Assembly (NCBI GenBank): GCA_017475805.1
Contig: JAFVEW010000237.1
Coordinates: 1 to 9,070 of the forward strand
Source: Synergistaceae bacterium
GTDB lineage: Bacteria; Synergistota; Synergistia; Synergistales; Aminobacteriaceae
DNA length: 9,070 bases
Reading direction: 5' to 3'
Each line of letters begins with the position of its first letter. Within the stretch, counting starts at the first letter, position 1. Shown piece after piece: positions 1 to 9,070 of the stretch. The notes below the pieces were generated by a model. The model saw nothing but the letters and a program-made list of their open reading frames with translations, was not told the DNA's origin and ran no database searches. A program made the translations under genes and the position numbers.

Positions 1-2436
1 AAAAATGTAACAATAGCTGCTACAGCGGGTACAGCTGGATTAGGCGTTGCTGGTTTAGTCACGTGGACTGTAAAAAAAAACGACGAAGACCTAATCGTTA
101 ACCAGCAAAGTTTGGCTGATACCTACATAGCTTATGACATTAGTGCGCTTTCAAGCATGAGTGCCGGAATGTACCCCGTTATAATCGAGGCTACTTCCGG
201 TGATTTTACTCAGAAGGCTACTGTTAACGTTACTGTAAAGGACAGTAGCGGCGGTGGTGATCAACCTGACGATCCAACACCTACCCCACCGACGACTTAT
301 GATTTTAGTATCTCGCCAAATACCAACAGCCTTGTCGTAAATAAGGGCGGCGATGCCAGAACGGTAACAATTACGGTCAGCGGTACACCCAGCGGCGATT
401 TGACTTGGGACAATCATCAAATTTCGGGTTTATCGATTGAGTTCACAAACAAAAGCAACTCAGGAGCAACCGTGAGTGTAAAAGCCGACAGCTCGTCTTC
501 TGTTGAAAACGCAACAGTAACCATCGAAGCGACTGACGCGGCCGGAACAACCGAGCCGACAACGTTCAAGGTCAGAGTTTCAGGAGGTTCTGGCGGCTCG
601 AGCGAGCCTGACCCTATAGATACGGACGATTATGAAAGCCGTATCTCTTCAATCTCGTCAACAATTAAAAGTTACTTTGAAAATTCCGCCGGATATGGCG
701 TCGGCGTACTTGCTGACTCAGAAGAGAATTTCTCATCAGATGGAGTGAGTATTGCTAAAGACTCTGACGTTGATTTTGAAGCTTTTGAAGAACTTGATCC
801 TCCTGAAACGCCGGTAGCAGCTTTGCCGGAAATTTTAGAGGACGCGTTGACTGAGTCTAAAATCTACGTTTTCAAGAGCATGAATGGAGTTTCAATCTCT
901 GACACTATTACAGACCTTATCAACGAAAAACAGTTACTCGAAGGCGAAGAGATTTTCGTTCACATGATCCCTGATGGAGAATTAGCGTCAAGCGCAGATT
1001 ACGGAATTTTCCTCGACGACGACGGCAACGAAATCACGACAGCTTTGACAAGTTATCCTTCAGGATTTAACATCGCAGCGTATCTCGAAGAAGAAACGAG
1101 CTATTTGCCCGTAATTTCAAAGTATAAACTTTCGTTTGACGTCGTTGAAGGTACGAATCTGACCCTCCCTGCCGGTGCAACAAGAACTTTGCACTTCGTC
1201 GCTAATAAAGACGTGCACGGCTGGAGTGCCTCAATAGACGAGGAAGAAGCTATCGAGTTCCCGTCGGCTATGGTTACTCAAGGCAACACCGCGAGCATTC
1301 CTATTCAAGCTGACGCTGACGCCGAGCTTGGTGATTATGGCGTTACGATAATCGCTGAAGACGTTGACGGAACTGAAGCCGAATTAAATATCACCGTAAC
1401 GGTTACTGCTCCTGTTCATACGTTAACGCTCTCGGCTGACGCTTCATACATAAGTCTCACTCGCGGCGGTGTTTCTAAGAACGTAACGATAACGGCGAGC
1501 GGTGATATTGACACAAGTAAGTTGAGCTGGTCGGTTAAAAATAACGGAGGCTTAATCGTCAGAGATTCTGGAATCTCGAGCAGCACGAGACACACGTATT
1601 CAATCGGTGCATCTTCGGACGCGACTATAGGCTCTCATACAGTCGTTATCGAAGTTTCTGACGATGTCAACGTCAAGACCGTAAGCATTACTGCTAACGT
1701 CACTTCTTCCGGCGGCGGAACAAGTGATGATCGTAAACAAGATTTTATAGATAACCGCTCTGATATACCCGTAGGACTTTTAGAACCGGTTAATGAAAGC
1801 GTCATAAGTTCCAGCAGTTTCTTGAATGCGATAAAGAGCATTTTAGCGTCTGCCTATGACGTCGCTTCTCTTGACATCAGTGCTTTCTCTTCTACGAGGC
1901 GCACTGCCGCTCAAGTTACAGAGAGCTTTGAGGATGAAGGCGAAGAAATTGTTTTAGCCTTGCCGCTCTTAGAGAAAGGTACGATTGAAGAAGCAAAAGT
2001 TTACGTTTTTGTCGTCGATATACGAGATAAACTCGCAGAAGCTATGAATGCTAACGTCATTAATTACAATTCGCCGTTATACGTTCGCGCTACGAAGTTG
2101 AACGTCAAGAGTGGAGATGTTGATAGTGATGACGTATCCGAGGTCGTTTCACTAGCTGATGCAGAAGATAGAGGAGTTTTCCTTGACGATGATGGTAATG
2201 AACTCACTACTGCACAAGAAATAACCAGGGCTAAAGACAATGGCAAGAATGTCAATGTCGCGGTATATCTTGAACCTGACACTGATTATTCAATCGTCAT
2301 AACAACAGACGCGGACAATGGCGGCGTTATAGGTCCGTCTGGAGCAGGCTGTATCGCAGGCTCGACGCTTGGCTTGATAGCTATGTCGCTTTCTTCAGGT
2401 ATTTTCCATATTCGCAAAAAAACTAAAAGAAAATAG
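1..2436 (+). CDS. Large repetitive secreted protein with Ig-like repeats and Synerg-CTERM tail, 5' end missing
   Basis: This is the C-terminal 811 residues of a surface or secreted protein. The frame is open back to base 1. The first visible residues already lie inside an Ig-like repeat (NVTI, then WTVKKNDEDLIV) matching a later one (NVTI, then WSVKNNGGLIV), so the true start is upstream and the TTG at 112 is internal. Visible order: partial Ig-like repeat (1-243), Pro/Gly/Asp linker (244-294), Ig-like repeat (about 301-580), Gly/Ser linker, module B1 (about 616-1125), two Ig-like repeats (1126-1419 and 1420-1704), SSGGG linker, module B2 (about 1732-2310) and a Synerg-CTERM tail (2311-2433). 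B1 and B2 share FLDDDGNE followed by a VAxYLE-like strand. The Ig-like repeats suggest adhesion or a structural role outside the cell, but the ligand is unknown. No catalytic motif is visible. The gene converges on the ABC operon. Confidence 0.88.
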   Translation, partial: KNVTIAATAGTAGLGVAGLVTWTVKKNDEDLIVNQQSLADTYIAYDISALSSMSAGMYPVIIEATSGDFTQKATVNVTVKDSSGGGDQPDDPTPTPPTTYDFSISPNTNSLVVNKGGDARTVTITVSGTPSGDLTWDNHQISGLSIEFTNKSNSGATVSVKADSSSSVENATVTIEATDAAGTTEPTTFKVRVSGGSGGSSEPDPIDTDDYESRISSISSTIKSYFENSAGYGVGVLADSEENFSSDGVSIAKDSDVDFEAFEELDPPETPVAALPEILEDALTESKIYVFKSMNGVSISDTITDLINEKQLLEGEEIFVHMIPDGELASSADYGIFLDDDGNEITTALTSYPSGFNIAAYLEEETSYLPVISKYKLSFDVVEGTNLTLPAGATRTLHFVANKDVHGWSASIDEEEAIEFPSAMVTQGNTASIPIQADADAELGDYGVTIIAEDVDGTEAELNITVTVTAPVHTLTLSADASYISLTRGGVSKNVTITASGDIDTSKLSWSVKNNGGLIVRDSGISSSTRHTYSIGASSDATIGSHTVVIEVSDDVNVKTVSITANVTSSGGGTSDDRKQDFIDNRSDIPVGLLEPVNESVISSSSFLNAIKSILASAYDVASLDISAFSSTRRTAAQVTESFEDEGEEIVLALPLLEKGTIEEAKVYVFVVDIRDKLAEAMNANVINYNSPLYVRATKLNVKSGDVDSDDVSEVVSLADAEDRGVFLDDDGNELTTAQEITRAKDNGKNVNVAVYLEPDTDYSIVITTDADNGGVIGPSGAGCIAGSTLGLIAMSLSSGIFHIRKKTKRK
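2311..2433 (+). other. Synerg-CTERM-type sorting tail (encoded), variant form
   Basis: This part of the reading frame encodes a Gly-rich turn with one Cys (GPSGAGCIAG, Cys codon at 2350-2352), a hydrophobic helix of about 17 residues and the basic end RKKTKRK. The order Gly-rich plus Cys, transmembrane helix, basic tail is that of the Synerg-CTERM signal, thought to direct cleavage and surface anchoring. The residue after the Cys is Ile, where the other protein in this window has Asn, so this copy deviates from the GGGCNAG form. No candidate processing protease lies in the window. Confidence 0.7.
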
Positions 2437-2458
2437 CCTTTAACTTTCAATAAAAATT

Positions 2459-2494
2459 AAATCCCGGTAGGAGATTTCCAAGCCGGGATTTTTT
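2459..2494. terminator. Bidirectional rho-independent terminator between convergent genes
   Basis: A perfect 9-bp stem, AAATCCCGG (2459-2467) with CCGGGATTT (2483-2491), closes a 15-nt loop. On the + strand the stem runs into six T (2489-2494). On the - strand it is followed by TTAATTTTTAT. It lies 22 bp after the stop of the + strand surface protein and 21 bp after the stop of the - strand ATPase gene, so it can end both transcripts. Confidence 0.88.
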
Positions 2495-2515
2495 ATATGC
2501 AAAAAATTTTTTATT

Positions 2516-3265
2516 TTAACGATGTAAAACTTTGGAAAGAAATTCTTTTGTTCGAGGCTGCTTAGGATTGTCAAAAACTTCGTCAGGTGTGCCTTCTTCG
2601 CTGATAACTCCGCCGTCAATGAATAAAACTCTGTCGGCAATTTTATGAGCAAATCCCATTTCGTGAGTAACGAGATACATCGTCATTCCTGAGTCAGCTA
2701 ATTCTTTCATGACGTCAAGAACTTCACCGATCATTTCAGGGTCTAATGCGCTCGTAGGCTCGTCGAACAATAAAACTTCAGGATTCATTGCCATAGCACG
2801 GGCGATCGCTACTCTTTGCTTCTGACCGCCTGAAAGTCTGTCCGGCCATTCGTCAATTTTGTCAGCAAGTCCGACACGGGCTAAAAGTTCTTGAGCTTTT
2901 GCTTCGGCTTCTTCCTGTGTCATGATTTTTAACTGAACGGGCGAGAGCGTCAGATTTTTTCTTACTGTTAGATGCGGGAACAAATAAAAATGTTGAAAGA
3001 CCATTCCCATTTTTCGCCGGACGAGATTAATATCGCAGGTCGGTGATGTGGTATTTTCGCCATTGAAAATTATCTCGCCGCTCGTAGGCTCTTCCATGCG
3101 GTTTAAGCAGCGCAGGAACGTGCTTTTTCCTGAACCTGACGGGCCGATGACAGCGATTTTTTCGCCTTTATTAATTGATGTTGAAATGCCGTTAAGAACG
3201 TTTAATTTCGTACCGTCTTGACGTATAAAAGTTTTATGAAGGTCTTTAACTTCGATAACTGCCAT
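2516..3265 (-). CDS. glnQ: Polar amino acid ABC transporter, ATP-binding protein (GlnQ/HisP family)
   Basis: This 249-residue cytoplasmic ATPase powers amino-acid import with the permease encoded just upstream. All nucleotide-binding motifs are intact: Walker [10 protein letters not shown] (41-49), Q-loop Gln91 in [14 protein letters not shown], signature LSGGQKQR (144-151), Walker B VLLFDE with catalytic Glu169, D-loop SALD (172-175) and switch His201 in THEMGFA. The LFPHLTV context and the length are typical of the polar amino-acid (PAAT) subfamily. The start is an ATG preceded by a strong GGGAGG about 9 bases upstream. The gap to the permease stop is 15 bp, so the two genes are cotranscribed. 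It is the last gene of the operon, ending before the terminator at 2459-2494. The symbol denotes the family; the actual substrate cannot be read from this subunit. Confidence 0.95.
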
Positions 3266-3280
3266 TTTTGAATCCCTCCC

Positions 3281-4093
3281 TTAACGGCGGCCGCGACTCA
3301 GCCATTCTTCTAACTTGCGGACGACATACGTCAAGAACAGCACGATAATCAAGTAAATAATCGCGACCATTACTAACGGCTGTGAATGTTCGAGCGTCAA
3401 AGCCTGAATATTTTGTCCGGCTCTCGTCAAGTCATCAATGCCGATATAGCCAGCGACTGAAGTTTCTTTTAACATTGCTATAAACTCATTGAAAAGCATC
3501 GGAATAACGTTTCTCAAAGCCTGAGGCAAAACTACAAACCTCATCGACTCACCGTAAGACAAGCCAAGAGAGCGAGCTGCTTCCATTTGTCCGGGATCGA
3601 TTGATTCAATGCCGCCTCTAAAAATTTCAGCGACATAGGCTCCTGAATTTAAGCCGAACGCAAGAATCGCTATATATTGAGTGTTCAGATTTCGAGCCGA
3701 AGCAAAAATCGTGAAGTTCCAGATTAAAAGCTGTACCATCGCGGGCGTGCCTCTAAGAACAGTTATATAAGTGTTCGCTAATTTATTAAGAAGAGGAATT
3801 TTAGCTCCGCCTTTGTAAGCCACTCGAATGACGCTGAGAATTAATCCCATTGCAAGGCCTATTAAAGTCGCTCCCGAAGTCATAAAGAGAGTAGCTTTGA
3901 GACCGTCAACGAGCATCATATATCTTTTATCTTTTATGAAATTCTGATAAAAACGCCTGTTGAAATCCTGCCACGCTGCCGCCGTGAAAAATCCTGAACT
4001 ATACAATAAATAAAGCAGGAAGAGGGCGAACACTCCTAAAACTATATCGCCTCTGCCTGCTCCGTCGCGCTTATTAAAAATATTATTTCTCAT
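3281..4093 (-). CDS. Polar amino acid ABC transporter, permease (HisM/GlnP family)
   Basis: This 270-residue inner-membrane subunit forms the translocation channel, probably as a homodimer because only one permease gene is present. The cytoplasmic EAA coupling motif that docks on the ATPase is clear: EAARSLGLSYGESMRFVVLP begins at residue 171 and continues QALRNVIP. The family-typical TVLRGTP (111-117) is also present. Hydrophobic segments lie at about 17-34, 62-90, 109-131, 138-157, 199-218 and 239-259. That is the five-helix core plus an extra N-terminal helix and a charged loop of about 25 residues. The ATG lies inside the last codons of the binding-protein gene (11-bp overlap) and has no strong ribosome binding site of its own, so translation is probably coupled to that gene. 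The protein ends in a basic stretch, LSRGRR. Confidence 0.93.
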   Translation of the reverse strand: MRNNIFNKRDGAGRGDIVLGVFALFLLYLLYSSGFFTAAAWQDFNRRFYQNFIKDKRYMMLVDGLKATLFMTSGATLIGLAMGLILSVIRVAYKGGAKIPLLNKLANTYITVLRGTPAMVQLLIWNFTIFASARNLNTQYIAILAFGLNSGAYVAEIFRGGIESIDPGQMEAARSLGLSYGESMRFVVLPQALRNVIPMLFNEFIAMLKETSVAGYIGIDDLTRAGQNIQALTLEHSQPLVMVAIIYLIIVLFLTYVVRKLEEWLSRGRR

Positions 4094-4898
4094 AGTCGTC
4101 TGCTCTGACTAAAGCAATTTGTTTTGCGCTCACGTAATTATCAGAAAAATCCATGTTCTCTTTTCGTTCTTCGGTTACGGTCATGCCGGCGCAAATCATG
4201 TCGACTTTATTCGTGGAAACGGCCATAGGAAGAGCGTCAAAATTCATGTTCTCGATGACTAATTCTCTATCTAATTTCTTGGCGATTAAAGCGCACATTT
4301 CGATATCAATTCCGATATAGCCTGAGCCGACTTTTAATTCATAAGGAGCAAAGCCTGCTTCAGTTCCTACAACGAGAGTGCCGCCTTTCGCGCCTTTATT
4401 AAAGTCTATATCTTCGGGTTTGATTGAAGACGAGTCGCCGTCTAAAAATGCCGTGTAATATTTATCAATAATTTTATCAAGAGTTCCGTCTGCTTTGAGT
4501 TCTTCGAGGGCTTTATTAACGGCCTCAACAAGTTCCGTATTGCCCTTTCTAAAACCAATCGCGTAACTTTCTTCCGAAAGGACTTCGTCCATGATCGCAA
4601 GACCTTCGACTTCACTAAGGAATCTACGCGCAGGCATTTCGTCCATGACAATAGCCCTGATTTTGCCCTGACGGAGTGCCGCGACCGCGTCGACGTATTT
4701 TTCGTAAGTCGTGAGTAAAAGACTTTTATTCTCGCCTAATAAATCTTCAGCGATATACTGGCCTGTCGTACCGCGCTGTGCTGCAAGTTTCTGAGTTTTG
4801 AGGTCGTCAACTGTCTTGAGCTTAGGCTCATCCGCAAAAGAACTCACGCAAAACGCAAAAATAAATAGAACTGTAATAGCTGCTAAAAATTTTTTCAT
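4083..4898 (-). CDS. Amino acid ABC transporter substrate-binding protein with circularly permuted SBP_bac_3 fold
   Basis: This 271-residue periplasmic protein should bind a polar amino acid and deliver it to the permease encoded next. Residues 1-22 form a signal peptide (MKKF start, hydrophobic core, likely cut after SFA). The rest resembles GlnH/HisJ proteins with the halves exchanged. Residues about 27-148 correspond to the usual second half (TVDDLK, RGTTGQ at 42-47, MDEMPA at 85-90, ADGTLDKIIDKYY). Residues 150-173 are a polar linker. Residues 174-271 correspond to the usual first half (LVVGTEAGFAPYE, FDALPMAV, GMTVTEER, MDFSDNY). Arg245 and Asp86 match the family residues that hold the ligand carboxylate and amine. 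The frame is continuous and no second copy lies nearby. Ribosome binding site AGGAGG (4913-4918) lies 14 bases before the ATG, which is long; an in-frame TAA just upstream rules out a nearby earlier start. Confidence 0.93.
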   Translation of the reverse strand: MKKFLAAITVLFIFAFCVSSFADEPKLKTVDDLKTQKLAAQRGTTGQYIAEDLLGENKSLLLTTYEKYVDAVAALRQGKIRAIVMDEMPARRFLSEVEGLAIMDEVLSEESYAIGFRKGNTELVEAVNKALEELKADGTLDKIIDKYYTAFLDGDSSSIKPEDIDFNKGAKGGTLVVGTEAGFAPYELKVGSGYIGIDIEMCALIAKKLDRELVIENMNFDALPMAVSTNKVDMICAGMTVTEERKENMDFSDNYVSAKQIALVRADDYEK

Positions 4899-4957
4899 GA
4901 TAAAAGATTAAACCTCCTGAAAAAAAATTAATTTCTCTCGAAATTTGTGAACAATTA

Positions 4958-4963
4958 ATTATA
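4958..4963 (-). promoter_or_regulatory. Probable -10 element of the ABC transporter operon
   Basis: Read on the - strand this is a perfect TATAAT in an AT-rich stretch, placing the transcript start about 50 bases before the binding-protein ATG. I see no good -35 hexamer at 16-18 bp. Two copies of AATTGTT (- strand; 4965-4971 and 4950-4956) flank the -10 exactly 15 bp apart and could be a repressor or activator site. The remainder of 4899-5084 has no gene. Confidence 0.4.
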
Positions 4964-5038
4964 TAACAATTACCCTTAAAAATGGCCATAAAAAACGATG
5001 AACAAAACATTTTTTAATCAAACCCAAAACACGAATAA

Positions 5039-5061
5039 CCCCGCACCTCAATGGTACGGGG
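5039..5061 (-). terminator. Probable terminator of the hsp20 gene
   Basis: Read on the - strand, CCCCG then ACC pairs with GGT then CGGGG, with one mismatch and a 5-nt loop, about 24 bases after the hsp20 stop codon. The sequence after it (TTATTCGTGTTTT) is T-rich but not a clean T-run, so termination may be incomplete and allow some read-through towards the ABC operon. Confidence 0.5.
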
Positions 5062-5084
5062 ACTAAATGCTTTTTCATTTATCC

Positions 5085-5540
5085 TTATGCTTCTGAAGTG
5101 ATGCTGACTTTTTTGTGAGCTTTATCCTGAGATTTTTCTGCAACTTCGACGGTTAAAACGCCGTTCTTGAAATTAGCCTTTGCGCTCTCGGGGTCAGCTT
5201 CTGCAGGGAACGAAATAACTCTTTCGACCTTGCCCCAGCTTCGCTCGCTCCTGAAGTAGTTTTTATCTTCGCCGCCCTCTTTAGTTTCAGATTTCTTTTC
5301 TGCTGAAAGCGTGAGCCTGTCAGAATAGACATGAAGGTCAACATCGTTGGGAGCGATTCCTGGAAGTTCGGCTTCAACGAAAATTTTTCCGTCTTTTCGG
5401 TATAAATCAACTTTTGCTCCGAAACTTGCGAATCCTTTTTCAAAAAACGGTTCTGTGATTCCCCAGCCTATTCTGTCAAACATGTCCATAGGGTCTTCCA
5501 TCATTCTTCTCATCATCGGATAAAAATTATCTCTTGCCAT
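5085..5540 (-). CDS. hsp20: Small heat shock protein, Hsp20/alpha-crystallin family
   Basis: This 151-residue ATP-independent cytoplasmic chaperone holds unfolding proteins and forms oligomers. A Met/Phe/Arg-rich N-terminal arm (about 1-40) precedes the alpha-crystallin domain (about 42-134), which begins VDLYRKDGKIFVEAELPG and contains the family signature ANFKNGVLTVEV (122-133). The C-terminal tail holds the VSI (145-147) form of the I-x-I motif that docks on a neighbouring subunit. Length and order are normal for the family. I chose the ATG at 5540-5538 because GGAGA lies 9 bases upstream. The TTG nine bases earlier would sit directly against this ribosome binding site. The gene appears monocistronic, with its own promoter at 5609-5635 and a terminator at 5039-5061. 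Confidence 0.95.
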   Translation of the reverse strand: MARDNFYPMMRRMMEDPMDMFDRIGWGITEPFFEKGFASFGAKVDLYRKDGKIFVEAELPGIAPNDVDLHVYSDRLTLSAEKKSETKEGGEDKNYFRSERSWGKVERVISFPAEADPESAKANFKNGVLTVEVAEKSQDKAHKKVSITSEA

Positions 5541-5581
5541 TTTTAACAATCTCCTTTTAACTTTTAACTTTCAATTTCTGC

Positions 5582-5600
5582 TTGTGATTTTCTCTCACAA
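5582..5600. promoter_or_regulatory. Operator-like dyad at the hsp20 transcript start
   Basis: TTGTGA (5582-5587) and TCACAA (5595-5600) form a perfect 6-bp inverted repeat with a 7-bp spacer. It lies immediately after the predicted -10 box, across the expected transcript start of hsp20, a usual place for a repressor to bind. It is not the CIRCE element bound by HrcA. The binding protein is unknown. Confidence 0.4.
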
Positions 5601-5608
5601 CGGTGCAA

Positions 5609-5635
5609 ATTATAACTCTGACCTTTATAAATCAA
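5609..5635 (-). promoter_or_regulatory. Probable sigma-70-type promoter of hsp20
   Basis: On the - strand a perfect TATAAT (5614-5609) lies 15 bp after TTGATT (5635-5630). Shifting the -35 by one base gives TTTGAT with 16 bp. The predicted start near 5602 gives a leader of about 60 bases that includes AAAGTTAAAAGTTAAAAGGAG just before the ATG. The short spacer makes this a moderate-strength call. Confidence 0.45.
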
Positions 5636-5691
5636 ATCCGAAAATTTGACTAACATTTACTAATAACTTTTACTGACGTTATAAAAAATTA

Positions 5692-5892
5692 GGAATTAGG
5701 AGTGAGGAATGTAGTTTTCTTCTCAAAATCTAATCTTAACGGAGATAAATTAGTCGCCCGAAACAAGAAAACTTTTCACTTCCTACTTGCAAAAAGAAAA
5801 CTTAATTAAATGCCATTCAGGCATTTAATCCTACATGCCGCATTTTGATTGTTGTGAAACCTTCGCCGTTTTTTCACTCCTAACTCCTCACT
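5692..5892. repeat. Intergenic cluster of degenerate purine-rich repeats in both orientations
   Basis: GGAATTAGGAGTGA (5692-5705) recurs inverted as TCACTCCTAACTCC (5874-5887), with 13 of 14 bases matching. A shorter relative, TTCACTTCCTACTT, lies at 5775-5788. AAGAAAACT occurs at 5765-5773 and within 5791-5802 and 5893-5904, and inverted at 5713-5721. The unit resembles the short AG-rich heptamer-like intergenic repeats (GAGTTAG/GAGTGAG) known from other bacteria. I see no coding sequence in 5541-6002. No clear target-site duplication is visible, so a mobile origin is only possible. Confidence 0.5.
5791..5829 (-). terminator. Second terminator-like hairpin with T-rich tail
   Basis: ATTAAATGCC (5805-5814) and GGCATTTAAT (5820-5829) make a perfect 10-bp stem with a 5-nt loop. 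On the - strand it is followed by TAAGTTTTCTTTTT (5804-5791), nearly the same tail as that after the hairpin at 5904-5930. It may be a back-up terminator for the long surface-protein transcript. The stem is AT-rich and therefore weaker than the upstream one. Confidence 0.5.
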
Positions 5893-5930
5893 AAAAAGAA
5901 AACTCCCTGCCTCATGCCGCGAGACAGGGA
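5890..5930 (-). terminator. Rho-independent terminator of the 938-residue surface protein gene
   Basis: On the - strand, TCCCTG then CTC pairs with GAG then CAGGGA, with one internal mismatch (arms 5921-5930 and 5904-5913) and a 7-nt loop. It is followed by AGTTTTCTTTTT. It lies about 72 bases after the stop codon of the surface-protein gene, and no other - strand gene could use it. Confidence 0.8.
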
Positions 5931-6002
5931 ATTTCTTCATTAGGTTGGTTTTGTTTTATAGATAACGCCGTTACTTAACGTAGCGTCGTTCGCTGAATTT
6001 AA

Positions 6003-8819
6003 TTACTTGCTCTTTTTGATTAAAGCAAGTACTGCTAAAGCTGCGATACCTGCAAAGCCTGCGTTGCATCCGCCGCCTGAGCCGCCTGTGCTGCCAGGAT
6101 TGTCAGGATCGGGCTGTACGTTGTTCGTAGCTTCGACAACTGCGTATGTTGAGCCTGCTGTAAGCTCTGCTTCGGCGTACGTTGACTTTCCTGAAGTGAT
6201 CGCGTTGTGGTTGACGTCAGTAAGAGTTGCTGCGGTGAATTCACCAGCTGCTGCTACAGAGGCTTCTGCTGTTGTCGGTGTAACTTCAACGAAGAAGACC
6301 TTTGAAGAATATGCGAACGTTCCGGGATAGGCAACATCGACTTTTTCGCCAGCTGTTCCTGCAGGAACGAAGACTTTGTCGCCAACTGTGAAGTTATCGA
6401 AATCCTGTTCTTCAAGAGCTTTCAATGCCTCAGTCTTCTGGGCGTCTGTTGCTGCAGATTCTGTAACTTCTGCGTACTCTTTTGTCGGTTCATCAGGCTG
6501 TGTCGGCTCGTCAGGCTCGCTGCCGTCGAATGATGCTGTCGTGTTCAATCTTGCGACTGCCACTACGTCGTTCTTGCTGCCAACGAACTTAAGGCCTTCG
6601 CCCGCTGTGTTAAAAGCATAAAGAGCTGTGCTGTCTACAATCGTTAAGGCATCGCCATTCGCATTCATTTCGATTGCTCTGCCGAGAGTGGTGAAACTTG
6701 GGAGATCATCGCTGGTAATATCAGCTGATTTCGTGCCGTTCCATGAATAGACTTTCTTAAGATCGCTGGTTAATGCATAGAGCTTGCCGTTGACGTTGTC
6801 GCCCGCGATTGCGCTAACACTAATTCCGGGAAGAACGCTCTTTGTCTGTGAGGCCATGTCGGTTAAAGCGTCTTTAAGATTCTCAAGGGCATCCGCGACT
6901 GCTGCTGCCGATGAATGGCTTCTTGCCTGCGCTTCGGCCGTTGCCGCTGCACTTGCTGCAGACGTTGCAACTGCTGAAATATCGTCGTAGCCGATTGCAG
7001 TATCCTGGGCTTTTATCAAAGCCGTTGTGAGCGTTTCGTCTGCTGTATTACCAAGATTGTTCAAGAGAGCCAAAGCACATTCCGCTTTGTACTGGGCTAA
7101 TTCAACAGCAGCACCAGTCGCAGCAGTCGCCATAGCATCCAAAGCTTCCAAAGAGGCTTCTAAGGCTAACTGTGCTCCTAAGGCCACTTTCACTGTCGTC
7201 TCGAGATCTTCCACTGTCGCATCTGCTGCTGTAACCGCATCCTTCATTAAAGCCTCTTTGCCTTCGGTCGTTTTTGCCTTGACTGCCGTAGCGATAGCTT
7301 CAGCAACTGCAGCTGTCAAAACACCCGTGCCATCTTCCGCAGTATTCCGTAAAGTAACTAATGCAGGGAAACCTGCAAGTGCAAATAGCGGACCTTCTTG
7401 ATTACCAGTAGTATTTGGGTCAGTATCCTCAGCCATTAGACCTTCTAACGCATCTGTAAGGGCTTGCTGCCTAGCCACTATACCCGCTAAAGCAACTTTT
7501 TTGGCATCTGTGCCAGTTGCGGTAAGATAAGCGCTTACAGCCGTGTCCATAGCTGTCGCTGCAGTCACAAGAGCTTGAAGATCATTAGCTACCACAAGGT
7601 TTGACAAACCTTCACCATTATTAGCATCATCCAACTCCACTGTACCACCAGCTAAAGCTGTCCCGGTTACTGTTGTACCTGTCGCCTCTGAGGCTTCATC
7701 GGCCTCCGCTGCAACTGTTGCTGCTGTCAACGTGCCTAACGCACTCGCGTCGGCTATCGCGCCCTTAATGGTCAAAGCCGCTATTGCAAGTTTTGCCAAG
7801 TTTGAAGTTGTTGTTGTGGGGGTGCCATTTCGAGCGGACATCTTTATCAATGCATTCACAAAATCCCTCAGGTCGCCAGCCAAGCTGACAGCGTCCGCGG
7901 CGTCTTTCAAACCTGCATAGTAAGCTGCAAGGGTTGTAACTGCACCAAGAGTCCTAACTCCCGTCTCACCAGCTACATAAAACTTTTCGCCGATAGATCC
8001 AAGGCTCTTAAACTTCTTAATAGGAGAATAGGTTACAACGTCATCCGCCATAGGTGATGTTGTCGCTCCATCATAGAACGAAATTGAGCCGTTTGAATTT
8101 ATTGTCATTGCAGGTGCATAGCCGCCCTTATCTGTCATGGCCACGCTGTTAAGCAACGTTTTCAATGCTTTTGAGTTGGCACCTAATTTCGTACTTGCAG
8201 TTACGCCAGTGAAGGTTGAAAGGACGTTGCCAAGCGCATTCTGTGCCGATTGGCTAAGTTCAACACCGCTTGCACTAAGTGCGTCTAAAGCGTCGCTTAA
8301 TGCTGTAGCTGCGTCTGAGGCATCTGTAGCGGCTGCTACGGGAGCGGCTTGCGGAACAGCAGCAAGAAATCCTGTGCCCTGAGCCGTGAAACCACTTTTA
8401 GCCGTAGCATCATACGCATAAAGTCCTGCTCTTCCTACGACAGCTATAGAAGAATCGCCAGACTGCGTAAATGAAGTAACCTGTCCAACTTTGGCAGCTG
8501 TCTTTTCAGCATTACGAGGGTTGGTATAAACAACATCGCCGCTCGCTTTAACTTTGACATATCCGCCATTGCCGGCAGCTACTGCTGTATCGTAATCTTG
8601 GCTATTCGTGAATAATCTAACGTCAGTGCCTAAACCAGCGGTAGCAATTCCAATATTATCGGTAGAAAGTGTAACGAGTTTACTTTCGTCAACTTTAAGA
8701 ACACCAACTTTGCCATACAAATCTGAATAAACATACGTCTCACCAGCCGCAAAAGCCGCCGACGCAAAAACCATAGTCACTAAGGTTATAGCGACTAATA
8801 AAGCGCTAAATTTTTTCAA
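6003..8819 (-). CDS. Ala-rich secreted surface protein with Synerg-CTERM tail, 938 residues
   Basis: I do not recognise a characterised homologue. Residues 1-24 form a signal peptide ending AFA. Residues about 27-157 (TYVYSDLYGKVGVLKV, AVVGRAGLYAYDA), about 232-292 and about 663-760 (NGKLYALTSDLKKVYSWNG, STALYAFNTAGEGLKFVG) look like beta-propeller-type strands. Ala-rich helical stretches separate them (about 158-229 and 295-660). A Glu/Pro/Asp linker (766-780) leads to a domain at about 788-898 related to the modules of the other surface protein. A Pro/Gly linker then leads to GGGCNAG (915-921), a hydrophobic helix and KKSK. The start is TTG: AAAGGGG (8835-8829) lies 9 bases upstream and a typical MKKF signal peptide begins there. 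A structural or adhesive role at the cell surface is inferred; no enzymatic motif is visible. Confidence 0.87.
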   Translation of the reverse strand: MKKFSALLVAITLVTMVFASAAFAAGETYVYSDLYGKVGVLKVDESKLVTLSTDNIGIATAGLGTDVRLFTNSQDYDTAVAAGNGGYVKVKASGDVVYTNPRNAEKTAAKVGQVTSFTQSGDSSIAVVGRAGLYAYDATAKSGFTAQGTGFLAAVPQAAPVAAATDASDAATALSDALDALSASGVELSQSAQNALGNVLSTFTGVTASTKLGANSKALKTLLNSVAMTDKGGYAPAMTINSNGSISFYDGATTSPMADDVVTYSPIKKFKSLGSIGEKFYVAGETGVRTLGAVTTLAAYYAGLKDAADAVSLAGDLRDFVNALIKMSARNGTPTTTTSNLAKLAIAALTIKGAIADASALGTLTAATVAAEADEASEATGTTVTGTALAGGTVELDDANNGEGLSNLVVANDLQALVTAATAMDTAVSAYLTATGTDAKKVALAGIVARQQALTDALEGLMAEDTDPNTTGNQEGPLFALAGFPALVTLRNTAEDGTGVLTAAVAEAIATAVKAKTTEGKEALMKDAVTAADATVEDLETTVKVALGAQLALEASLEALDAMATAATGAAVELAQYKAECALALLNNLGNTADETLTTALIKAQDTAIGYDDISAVATSAASAAATAEAQARSHSSAAAVADALENLKDALTDMASQTKSVLPGISVSAIAGDNVNGKLYALTSDLKKVYSWNGTKSADITSDDLPSFTTLGRAIEMNANGDALTIVDSTALYAFNTAGEGLKFVGSKNDVVAVARLNTTASFDGSEPDEPTQPDEPTKEYAEVTESAATDAQKTEALKALEEQDFDNFTVGDKVFVPAGTAGEKVDVAYPGTFAYSSKVFFVEVTPTTAEASVAAAGEFTAATLTDVNHNAITSGKSTYAEAELTAGSTYAVVEATNNVQPDPDNPGSTGGSGGGCNAGFAGIAALAVLALIKKSK
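6006..6077 (-). other. Synerg-CTERM sorting tail (encoded), canonical form
   Basis: The last 24 codons encode GGGCNAGFAGIAALAVLALI followed by KKSK. Gly-rich run, Cys (codon 6068-6066), Asn-Ala-Gly, a short Ala/Leu/Ile helix and a basic end are the features of the Synerg-CTERM family of sorting signals described for Synergistetes. This is the strongest taxonomic clue in the window. Processing near the Cys followed by surface anchoring is inferred from related tripartite C-terminal signals. Confidence 0.85.
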
Positions 8820-8835
8820 AATTAAAAACCCCTTT

Positions 8836-8854
8836 CAAGAAATTTTTTTTCTTG
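8836..8854 (-). promoter_or_regulatory. Leader hairpin directly upstream of the surface-protein ribosome binding site
   Basis: CAAGAAA and TTTCTTG form a perfect 7-bp stem with a 5-nt A loop at the predicted very 5' end of the mRNA. It ends one base before the ribosome binding site AAAGGGG. A hairpin here could protect the messenger from 5' decay. It does not cover the ribosome binding site as drawn. Confidence 0.4.
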
Positions 8855-8882
8855 TTTATATATAAAGAAATCCCTCTGTCCA
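8855..8882 (-). promoter_or_regulatory. Probable promoter of the 938-residue surface protein gene
   Basis: On the - strand TGGACA (8882-8877), one base from consensus, lies 16 bp before TATAAA (8860-8855). The predicted transcript starts about 30 bases before the TTG start codon and begins with the hairpin at 8836-8854. Confidence 0.55.
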
Positions 8883-8917
8883 TGTTATTGCAGGGGCGGC
8901 ATCCCCATGACGAACAG

Positions 8918-8940
8918 AAGGATTGATTTATATCATCCTT
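8918..8940. repeat. Inverted repeat between divergent promoters
   Basis: AAGGATTGAT (8918-8927) and ATCATCCTT (8932-8940) pair along their whole length apart from one extra T, around a 4-bp centre. It sits midway between the - strand promoter at 8855-8882 and the + strand promoter candidate at 8951-8978. That position suits an operator acting on one or both. Confidence 0.35.
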
Positions 8941-8950
8941 TGAAAAGTCT

Positions 8951-8978
8951 TTTACTGGAAAAATATTTGTGATATACT
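8951..8978 (+). promoter_or_regulatory. Candidate divergent promoter reading out of the window
   Basis: An extended -10, TGATATACT (8970-8978), lies 16 bp after TTTACT (8951-8956, four of six consensus bases). A transcript starting near 8985 would run through 8985-9070, where I see no start codon with a ribosome binding site. That stretch contains a tandem repeat of GCTGTAA (two copies plus GCTG, 9028-9045) and a TATAAT at the very edge (9065-9070). It may be a leader, a small RNA or simply an upstream region of the next gene. Confidence 0.35.
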
Positions 8979-9070
8979 TGCGGGTTAGGCTCTGATAATA
9001 AGGGCTTGCGAATAGCGCATAAGTGTGGCTGTAAGCTGTAAGCTGATTATACCGAGTTTCATCTTATAAT

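Follow-up and report, generated by a model that had tools for sequence, protein, structure and literature searches.

The window studied here, by which we mean the whole stretch of 9,070 nt from a Synergistaceae bacterium (GCA_017475805.1, contig JAFVEW010000237.1, positions 1-9,070, forward strand), carries a substrate-binding protein (SBP) gene which very probably encodes a functional periplasmic polar amino-acid binding protein, whose chain ends have been moved by a natural circular permutation from lobe 1 to the lobe-lobe crossover. Canonical proteins of the family begin with the N-terminal part of lobe 1 (block B) and continue with lobe 2 and a C-terminal segment (block A), and the window SBP has the two blocks in the order A-B (Table 1). 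The permutation had been claimed in an earlier note made from the sequence alone, and it is borne out by Pfam and PDB matches whose stretches come in reversed order.

Block order and predicted structure

The Pfam family SBP_bac_3 (PF00497) matches the window SBP in two stretches (8.8e-35, 119.8 bits against a cut-off of 26.4), the best of which places residues 175-268 on profile positions 1-94. With phmmer, amino-acid binding proteins of the PDB align likewise as two stretches in reversed order, for example 4zv1, with residues 172-265 on 9-103 and 26-148 on 108-231, at 71 bits each. By sequence comparison, this reversed two-stretch match is far above chance. Among the 60 of 92 PDB sequence matches inspected, the sole chain with a continuous best stretch (23-268) is 6h30, where that stretch spans the junction of SBD1 and SBD2 of GlnPQ. 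As to membership in PF00497 (cluster F-IV), the score lies above the cut-off and the ligand Arg and Asp are conserved, and the block order is A-B instead of the canonical B-A; judged from these features, the protein is a permuted branch homologous to the family rather than a canonical member.

The single chain is predicted by AlphaFold2 with a predicted local distance difference test (pLDDT) of 93.3 and a predicted template modelling score (pTM) of 0.84, confidently over both blocks, and in VIA both lobes of the model align to periplasmic binding proteins (PBPs), residues 170-258 for example on TmArgBP domain 1 at 1.6 A and 40% identity. A failure of the two halves to close, which the earlier note had named as a ground for giving up the claim, is thus not seen in the model. 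In chain order, the top match of the model in both VIA and Foldseek is OpuAC, with a VIA fit of 4.4 A. The strand that crosses from one lobe to the other ends at the permutation site, in agreement with the proposal that the new termini lie at the hinge. A linker joins the old C-terminus with the old N-terminus as had been described, although it has 26 residues and not about 24. The coordinates in the earlier note were correct to within a few bases, and its statements that the frame is intact, with no internal stop, that Arg245 and Asp86 are kept, and that the operon holds an intact permease and ATPase all hold (Table 1).

Since a linker of about 25 residues bridges the old termini, blocks A and B of one chain are predicted to close as one two-lobed Venus-flytrap. 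An alpha-amino acid contacted by the usual Arg and Asp would lie between the lobes, which would then close; we take Arg245, the arginine of the TxxER motif, to be the alpha-carboxylate ligand of this family, and Asp86 presumably is its alpha-amino ligand. The closed SBP would then dock on a homodimeric GlnP-like permease, and GlnQ-type ATP-dependent uptake would be driven. As both residues are kept, the sequence points to polar amino-acid uptake as the most likely role. Three observations weigh against this interpretation. For the window SBP, none of the NCBIfam models for GlnH, LAO and cystine reaches its cut-off; the whole-chain Foldseek TM for the OpuAC matches is just 0.42-0.48, on a predicted structure; and the crossover strand is short by one residue at 4128-4136 (-), reading NYVSAK against NYVVGAK.

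Conservation of the permuted order

The homologue search with the window SBP gave 6267 matching proteins, and all of the best 120, which were examined for block order, are A-B. A species-genome collection was scanned with two block-B motifs; among the 270 relatives detected, the 80 loci with the best matches (L001-L080) were taken. All 48 two-block open reading frames (ORFs) in L001-L041 are A-B and all 39 in L042-L080 are B-A, so the same test separates both orders cleanly; block A stands alone in three further ORFs. At 40 of 40 loci, L001-L040, each in a separate genome record, the main SBP is A-B, and the gene directly downstream, in the same orientation, encodes a permease (gap -74 to +84, 34 overlapping). 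The ATPase is found at 38 of these 40 loci, overlapping or within 12 bp at 35, at 115 bp at one, and elsewhere at two. The ratio of nonsynonymous to synonymous substitution rates (dN/dS) is 0.066-0.150 for the whole gene against six relatives (265-271 codons), and 0.04-0.25 for the linker only (six comparisons, 23-26 codons). Such low values show that purifying selection acts on the permuted gene.

These data bear on three other explanations of the window SBP. The chance is negligible that the SBP is an error of assembly or that a recent rearrangement fused fragments of two SBP genes, since the order is the same in all 120 listed homologues, in 56 further proteins (53 A-B and 3 A-B-A-B) and at the 40 loci; the misjoin of two loci, the other ground for refutation named in the earlier note, is ruled out by these independent records. 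That the gene is a pseudogene or a decaying remnant without function might be suggested by the short crossover strand, common to 5 of the 120 listed homologues, the five nearest (P0001-P0005), with the residue present in the other 115, as well as by the divergent permuted paralogues of genome G001, in which the TxxER arginine is absent from all ten aligned copies (A-B or A-only). We reject this very improbable reading on the dN/dS values and on the permease synteny. The SBP might also work only as a domain-swapped dimer, in which block A pairs with block B of a second chain: such exchange, too, could be permitted by a linker of about 25 residues, and TmArgBP, of the same SBP family, reportedly domain-swaps. 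We find this improbable, because the single-chain prediction, though of a monomer only, is confident over both blocks, and because the A-to-B linker varies little in length in fused arrays (see below) and in the homologues of the window search (26.2, standard deviation (sd) 1.8, n=109), with a wider spread when divergent paralogues are included (25.4, sd 3.6, range 21-41, n=81).

Distribution of stand-alone permuted SBPs

The scope of the permutation was underestimated in the earlier note, as it recurs among Synergistota genomes, occurs in Firmicutes and extends to permease fusions. In a sample of 185 Synergistota genomes, the phylum of the genome of L001, 71 have a match at E<=1e-15. In this phylum, where the earlier note had proposed to search for homologues of the same order, at least 50 of the 185 have a both-block match at E<=1e-40, counted from the listed places. 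Among the listed places in other genomes, the match of G124 is a fusion and covers both blocks, and those of G166, G147, G043 and G039 cover one block. The stand-alone proteins fall into three subfamilies with about 70-89%, 51-56% and 40-49% identity to the window SBP, and at the four loci read of the latter two (L085, L138, L134, L136) a permease was not detected.

The stretches read of genome G001 hold 22 single A-B, one A-only, one cut-off A-B-A, one array, four B-A and three B-only ORFs. They include about 20 divergent permuted paralogues (L170-L182), several of them in gene clusters. With the TxxER arginine missing from the ten aligned copies, the amino-acid carboxylate is probably no longer bound in the usual way, and by their sequences the paralogues are possibly a repurposed secreted family. 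In P0260, P0262 and P0264, a divergent permuted unit is naturally fused to a window-type permuted unit; these proteins look secreted and are free of a permease.

Firmicutes too carry window-type permuted SBPs. The 56 further proteins mentioned above are relatives of L040, which is labelled Clostridiaceae, and among them are one from Fastidiosipilaceae and others whose signal peptides resemble those of lipoproteins. Mis-binning of L040 is less likely given these signal peptides in several relatives, and given that the close relatives include P0242, the protein of a Fastidiosipilaceae metagenome-assembled genome (MAG) whose longest contig is 2.36 Mb.

Permuted units fused to permeases

Fusion ORFs of 1054-2260 aa in Synergistota consist of a signal, (A-B)n and a permease, with n from 3 to 8 in the complete arrays read; the permease domain was assigned by Pfam in the two tested. 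In all 11 complete arrays (L120, L121, L123-L130, L189), A comes first and B last before the permease. At 9 of the 11 loci L120-L130 the stretch read includes an ATPase gene, and there is one beside L189 and L133 as well. The giant ORFs with tandem permuted domains on one permease, up to 2260 aa, were observed at L120-L130, L132 and L189, and one or more permuted domains together with permease and ATPase in one ORF, whole or cut short, at L161 (G124), L216, L219, L221, L222, L224, L226, L227 and L229. The single-unit fusion L133 (513 aa), used as query, gave 3111 matches, and the best 120 comprise 108 A-B-A-B, 11 A-B and one B-A-B-A-B; those named among the listed matches are Synergistaceae, Clostridiales, Clostridia, Lachnospiraceae, Ruminiclostridium and Erysipelotrichaceae MAGs. 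In the order of Anaerocolumna sedimenticola (Firmicutes), 53 of 392 sampled genomes have a fusion match at E<=1e-50, and all 30 fetched loci are permuted: 13 ABT, 7 ABABT, 6 ABTN, 2 ABABABT and 2 ABABTN, where T is the permease and N the ATPase. The complete chromosome of A. sedimenticola itself bears one permuted fusion.

It must be asked which pair of blocks folds together in these arrays. The tandem fusions could in principle fold as canonical B(i)-A(i+1) units with a leftover A and B at both ends: a canonical profile is matched in one piece by B followed by A (P0240 161-387 on TIGR01096), and the B-to-A gaps of Firmicutes fusions (8-21) overlap the canonical range (10-17). Against this, the A-to-B gaps are nearly fixed, with 23.9 (sd 0.8, n=78) and 23.5 (sd 0.9, n=228) in related and therefore non-independent sequences, whereas the B-to-A gaps, also from related sequences, are more variable, with 20.3 (sd 6.5, range 10-51, n=66) and 15.7 (sd 3.5, n=110); the canonical B-to-A control gap is 12.6 (sd 1.8, n=56). 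This difference in constancy argues for A-B as the folding unit. The AlphaFold2 model of the two-unit fusion P0240 has a pLDDT of 82 and a pTM of 0.44, so its domain placement is loose; in it OpuAC aligns on A1+B1 (17-260) at 4.6 A, whereas the 18 of 50 VIA rows with canonical PBPs on B1+A2 (about 157-347) are all at 14.8-16.8 A. None of the rows shown has OpuAC on A2+B2, and the agreement with an A-B unit covers the first unit. In addition, fusions with a single A-B exist, as seen in the 11 matches above. On gap lengths and predicted structure we judge the canonical pairing unlikely; they indicate that A-B rather than B-A is the folding unit of the arrays.

Origin of the permutation

The permutation probably arose from an in-frame tandem of two binding-protein copies whose outer halves were lost; a direct intermediate of this route was not found. 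The SBP trees were built from 80 of 123 units, reduced to 69 rows by removing 11 (long branches and some neighbours), and from 64 chosen units, reduced to 58 rows by removing six; for the permease tree, 7 of 67 rows were removed. In the 64-unit tree, the stand-alone permuted SBPs form one clade (100/100), which stands next to canonical Lachnospiraceae-type SBPs (90/94), with the fused units elsewhere in the tree; the joining with these canonical SBPs has a support of 76 in the 58-row tree. The fused units form one group in the 58-row tree (support 91, not starred) and, bar a long-branch row, in the 80-unit tree, and they do not in the 64-unit tree (18% of bootstrap trees). Compared with the window SBP, 18 canonical Lachnospiraceae-type proteins have a median identity of 50% (B) and 32% (A), and 36 fused permuted units one of 26% (B) and 24% (A). 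Tree placement and identities thus favour two permutations. In the approximately unbiased (AU) test, holding all permuted SBPs together is rejected with 69 rows (p-AU 0.031), where 18 of the 24 canonical rows come from the block-B motif scan, but not with the wider canonical sample of 58 rows (p-AU 0.41). A model of the fused linkers scores 127 window-type linkers at 2.75 bits, shuffled ones at -2.0 and 63 canonical N-terminal stretches at 1.1 (maximum 9.1).

In the permease tree, the permeases of the window family (10 rows, 100/100) form one clade and the fused ones (31 rows, 100/100) another, and the idea that the window family arose when an A-B-permease fusion split is unsupported, though the AU test does not reject joining the two (p 0.24). 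We tentatively suggest, at somewhat less than even chances, that the polar amino-acid fold was permuted at the same hinge at least twice, in the stand-alone proteins and in the fusions, which would open an array architecture with up to eight hinge-strung domains per permease chain, both lobes being free to dock. If true, there would be up to 16 binding domains per importer, provided that the fusion dimerises as GlnPQ does.

Relation to known systems

Natural circular permutants of binding proteins are known from a few families (OpuAC, TpMglB-2), and in searches of the open-access literature neither a permuted PF00497 protein nor a permuted array was seen among the papers listed. In PMC2395249, a family whose members are related by circular permutation is described; it comprises glycine-betaine binders (2b4l among them), molybdate binders and CysB. 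OpuAC, the glycine-betaine SBP of B. subtilis (PDB 2b4l), is like the window SBP a two-lobed PBP with the same fold in chain order, but it belongs to another ligand family, has 11-12% identity in VIA and is absent among the 60 PDB sequence matches inspected. TpMglB-2 of Treponema pallidum, according to PMC4990184, is a natural circular permutant which still binds ligand and for which the label Type Ic / Cluster Bc was proposed; it shares with the window SBP the natural permutation of a binding protein, but as described there it has a Type I fold and a sugar ligand, while the window SBP matches PF00497. With GlnH, HisJ and ArgBP (PF00497), the window SBP has homology in both blocks, the ligand Arg and Asp and GlnP/GlnQ-like partners in common, and it differs in the reversed block order, the extra linker and the chain ends at the lobe crossover. 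GlnPQ, as described in PMC8025302, has SBD1-SBD2 fused to the permease; it resembles the permuted fusions in having tandem binding domains on a permease, but its domains are two and in canonical order, while the fusions have one to eight permuted units. Binding domain and permease are in separate genes in the window and in one chain in the fused relatives.

The permuted proteins make up a conserved branch within a bacterial protein family that is among the most studied, and they occur in many gut bacteria. Where permuted SBPs are named at all, they are labelled as ordinary transport proteins, and order-dependent profiles see them as two partial matches. They would be natural controls on the role of the chain ends in Venus-flytrap closing and docking, and as scaffolds for amino-acid sensors they would come already permuted. 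Domain competition at a single permease could be tested in the importers that carry 3-8 binding domains in tandem.

Features of the window and neighbouring genes

Table 1. Parts of the permuted SBP gene and its partner genes in the window
Feature	Position	Strand	Basis or remark
Circularly permuted polar amino-acid SBP (very probable)	4083-4898	-	271 aa, ATG start, 0 internal stops
Signal peptide (putative), residues ~1-23	4830-4898	-	sequence reading; predicted helix 2-21 with lower pLDDT
Block A, residues 29-148, lobe 2 + segment C-terminal in canonical proteins	4455-4814	-	phmmer against PDB
Linker, residues 149-174 (26), old C-terminus to old N-terminus	4377-4454	-	conserved ...SIKPEDIDFNKGAKGG
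Block B, residues 175-271, N-terminal part of lobe 1, ends in crossover strand	4086-4376	-	Pfam, VIA
Arg245 codon, TxxER motif	4164-4166	-	invariant in 55 permuted sequences
Asp86 codon	4641-4643	-	kept in at least 90% of 55 permuted sequences
BPD_transp_1 permease, GlnP-like, intact	3281-4093	-	11-bp overlap with SBP gene
ATP-binding cassette (ABC) ATPase, GlnQ-like, intact	2516-3265	-	304 bits, below the equivalog cut-off of 379

By our own reading of the sequence, signal-peptide cleavage of the window SBP would fall near SSFA/DE, with a clear lipobox absent. The best NCBIfam models for the permease and the ATPase are GlnP and GlnQ, both under their equivalog cut-offs. Upstream of the operon, an Hsp20-type small heat-shock protein is encoded at 5085-5549 (-). 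A secreted-looking repeat protein of 774 aa is encoded at 112-2436 (+), with zero NCBIfam matches at E<=1e-3. In addition, a surface protein of 938 aa at 6003-8819 (-) has a Synerg-CTERM sorting signal (TIGR04564, 26.4 bits against 22.5), and the hydrophobic, Cys-containing tail of the repeat protein is similar to that of this protein.
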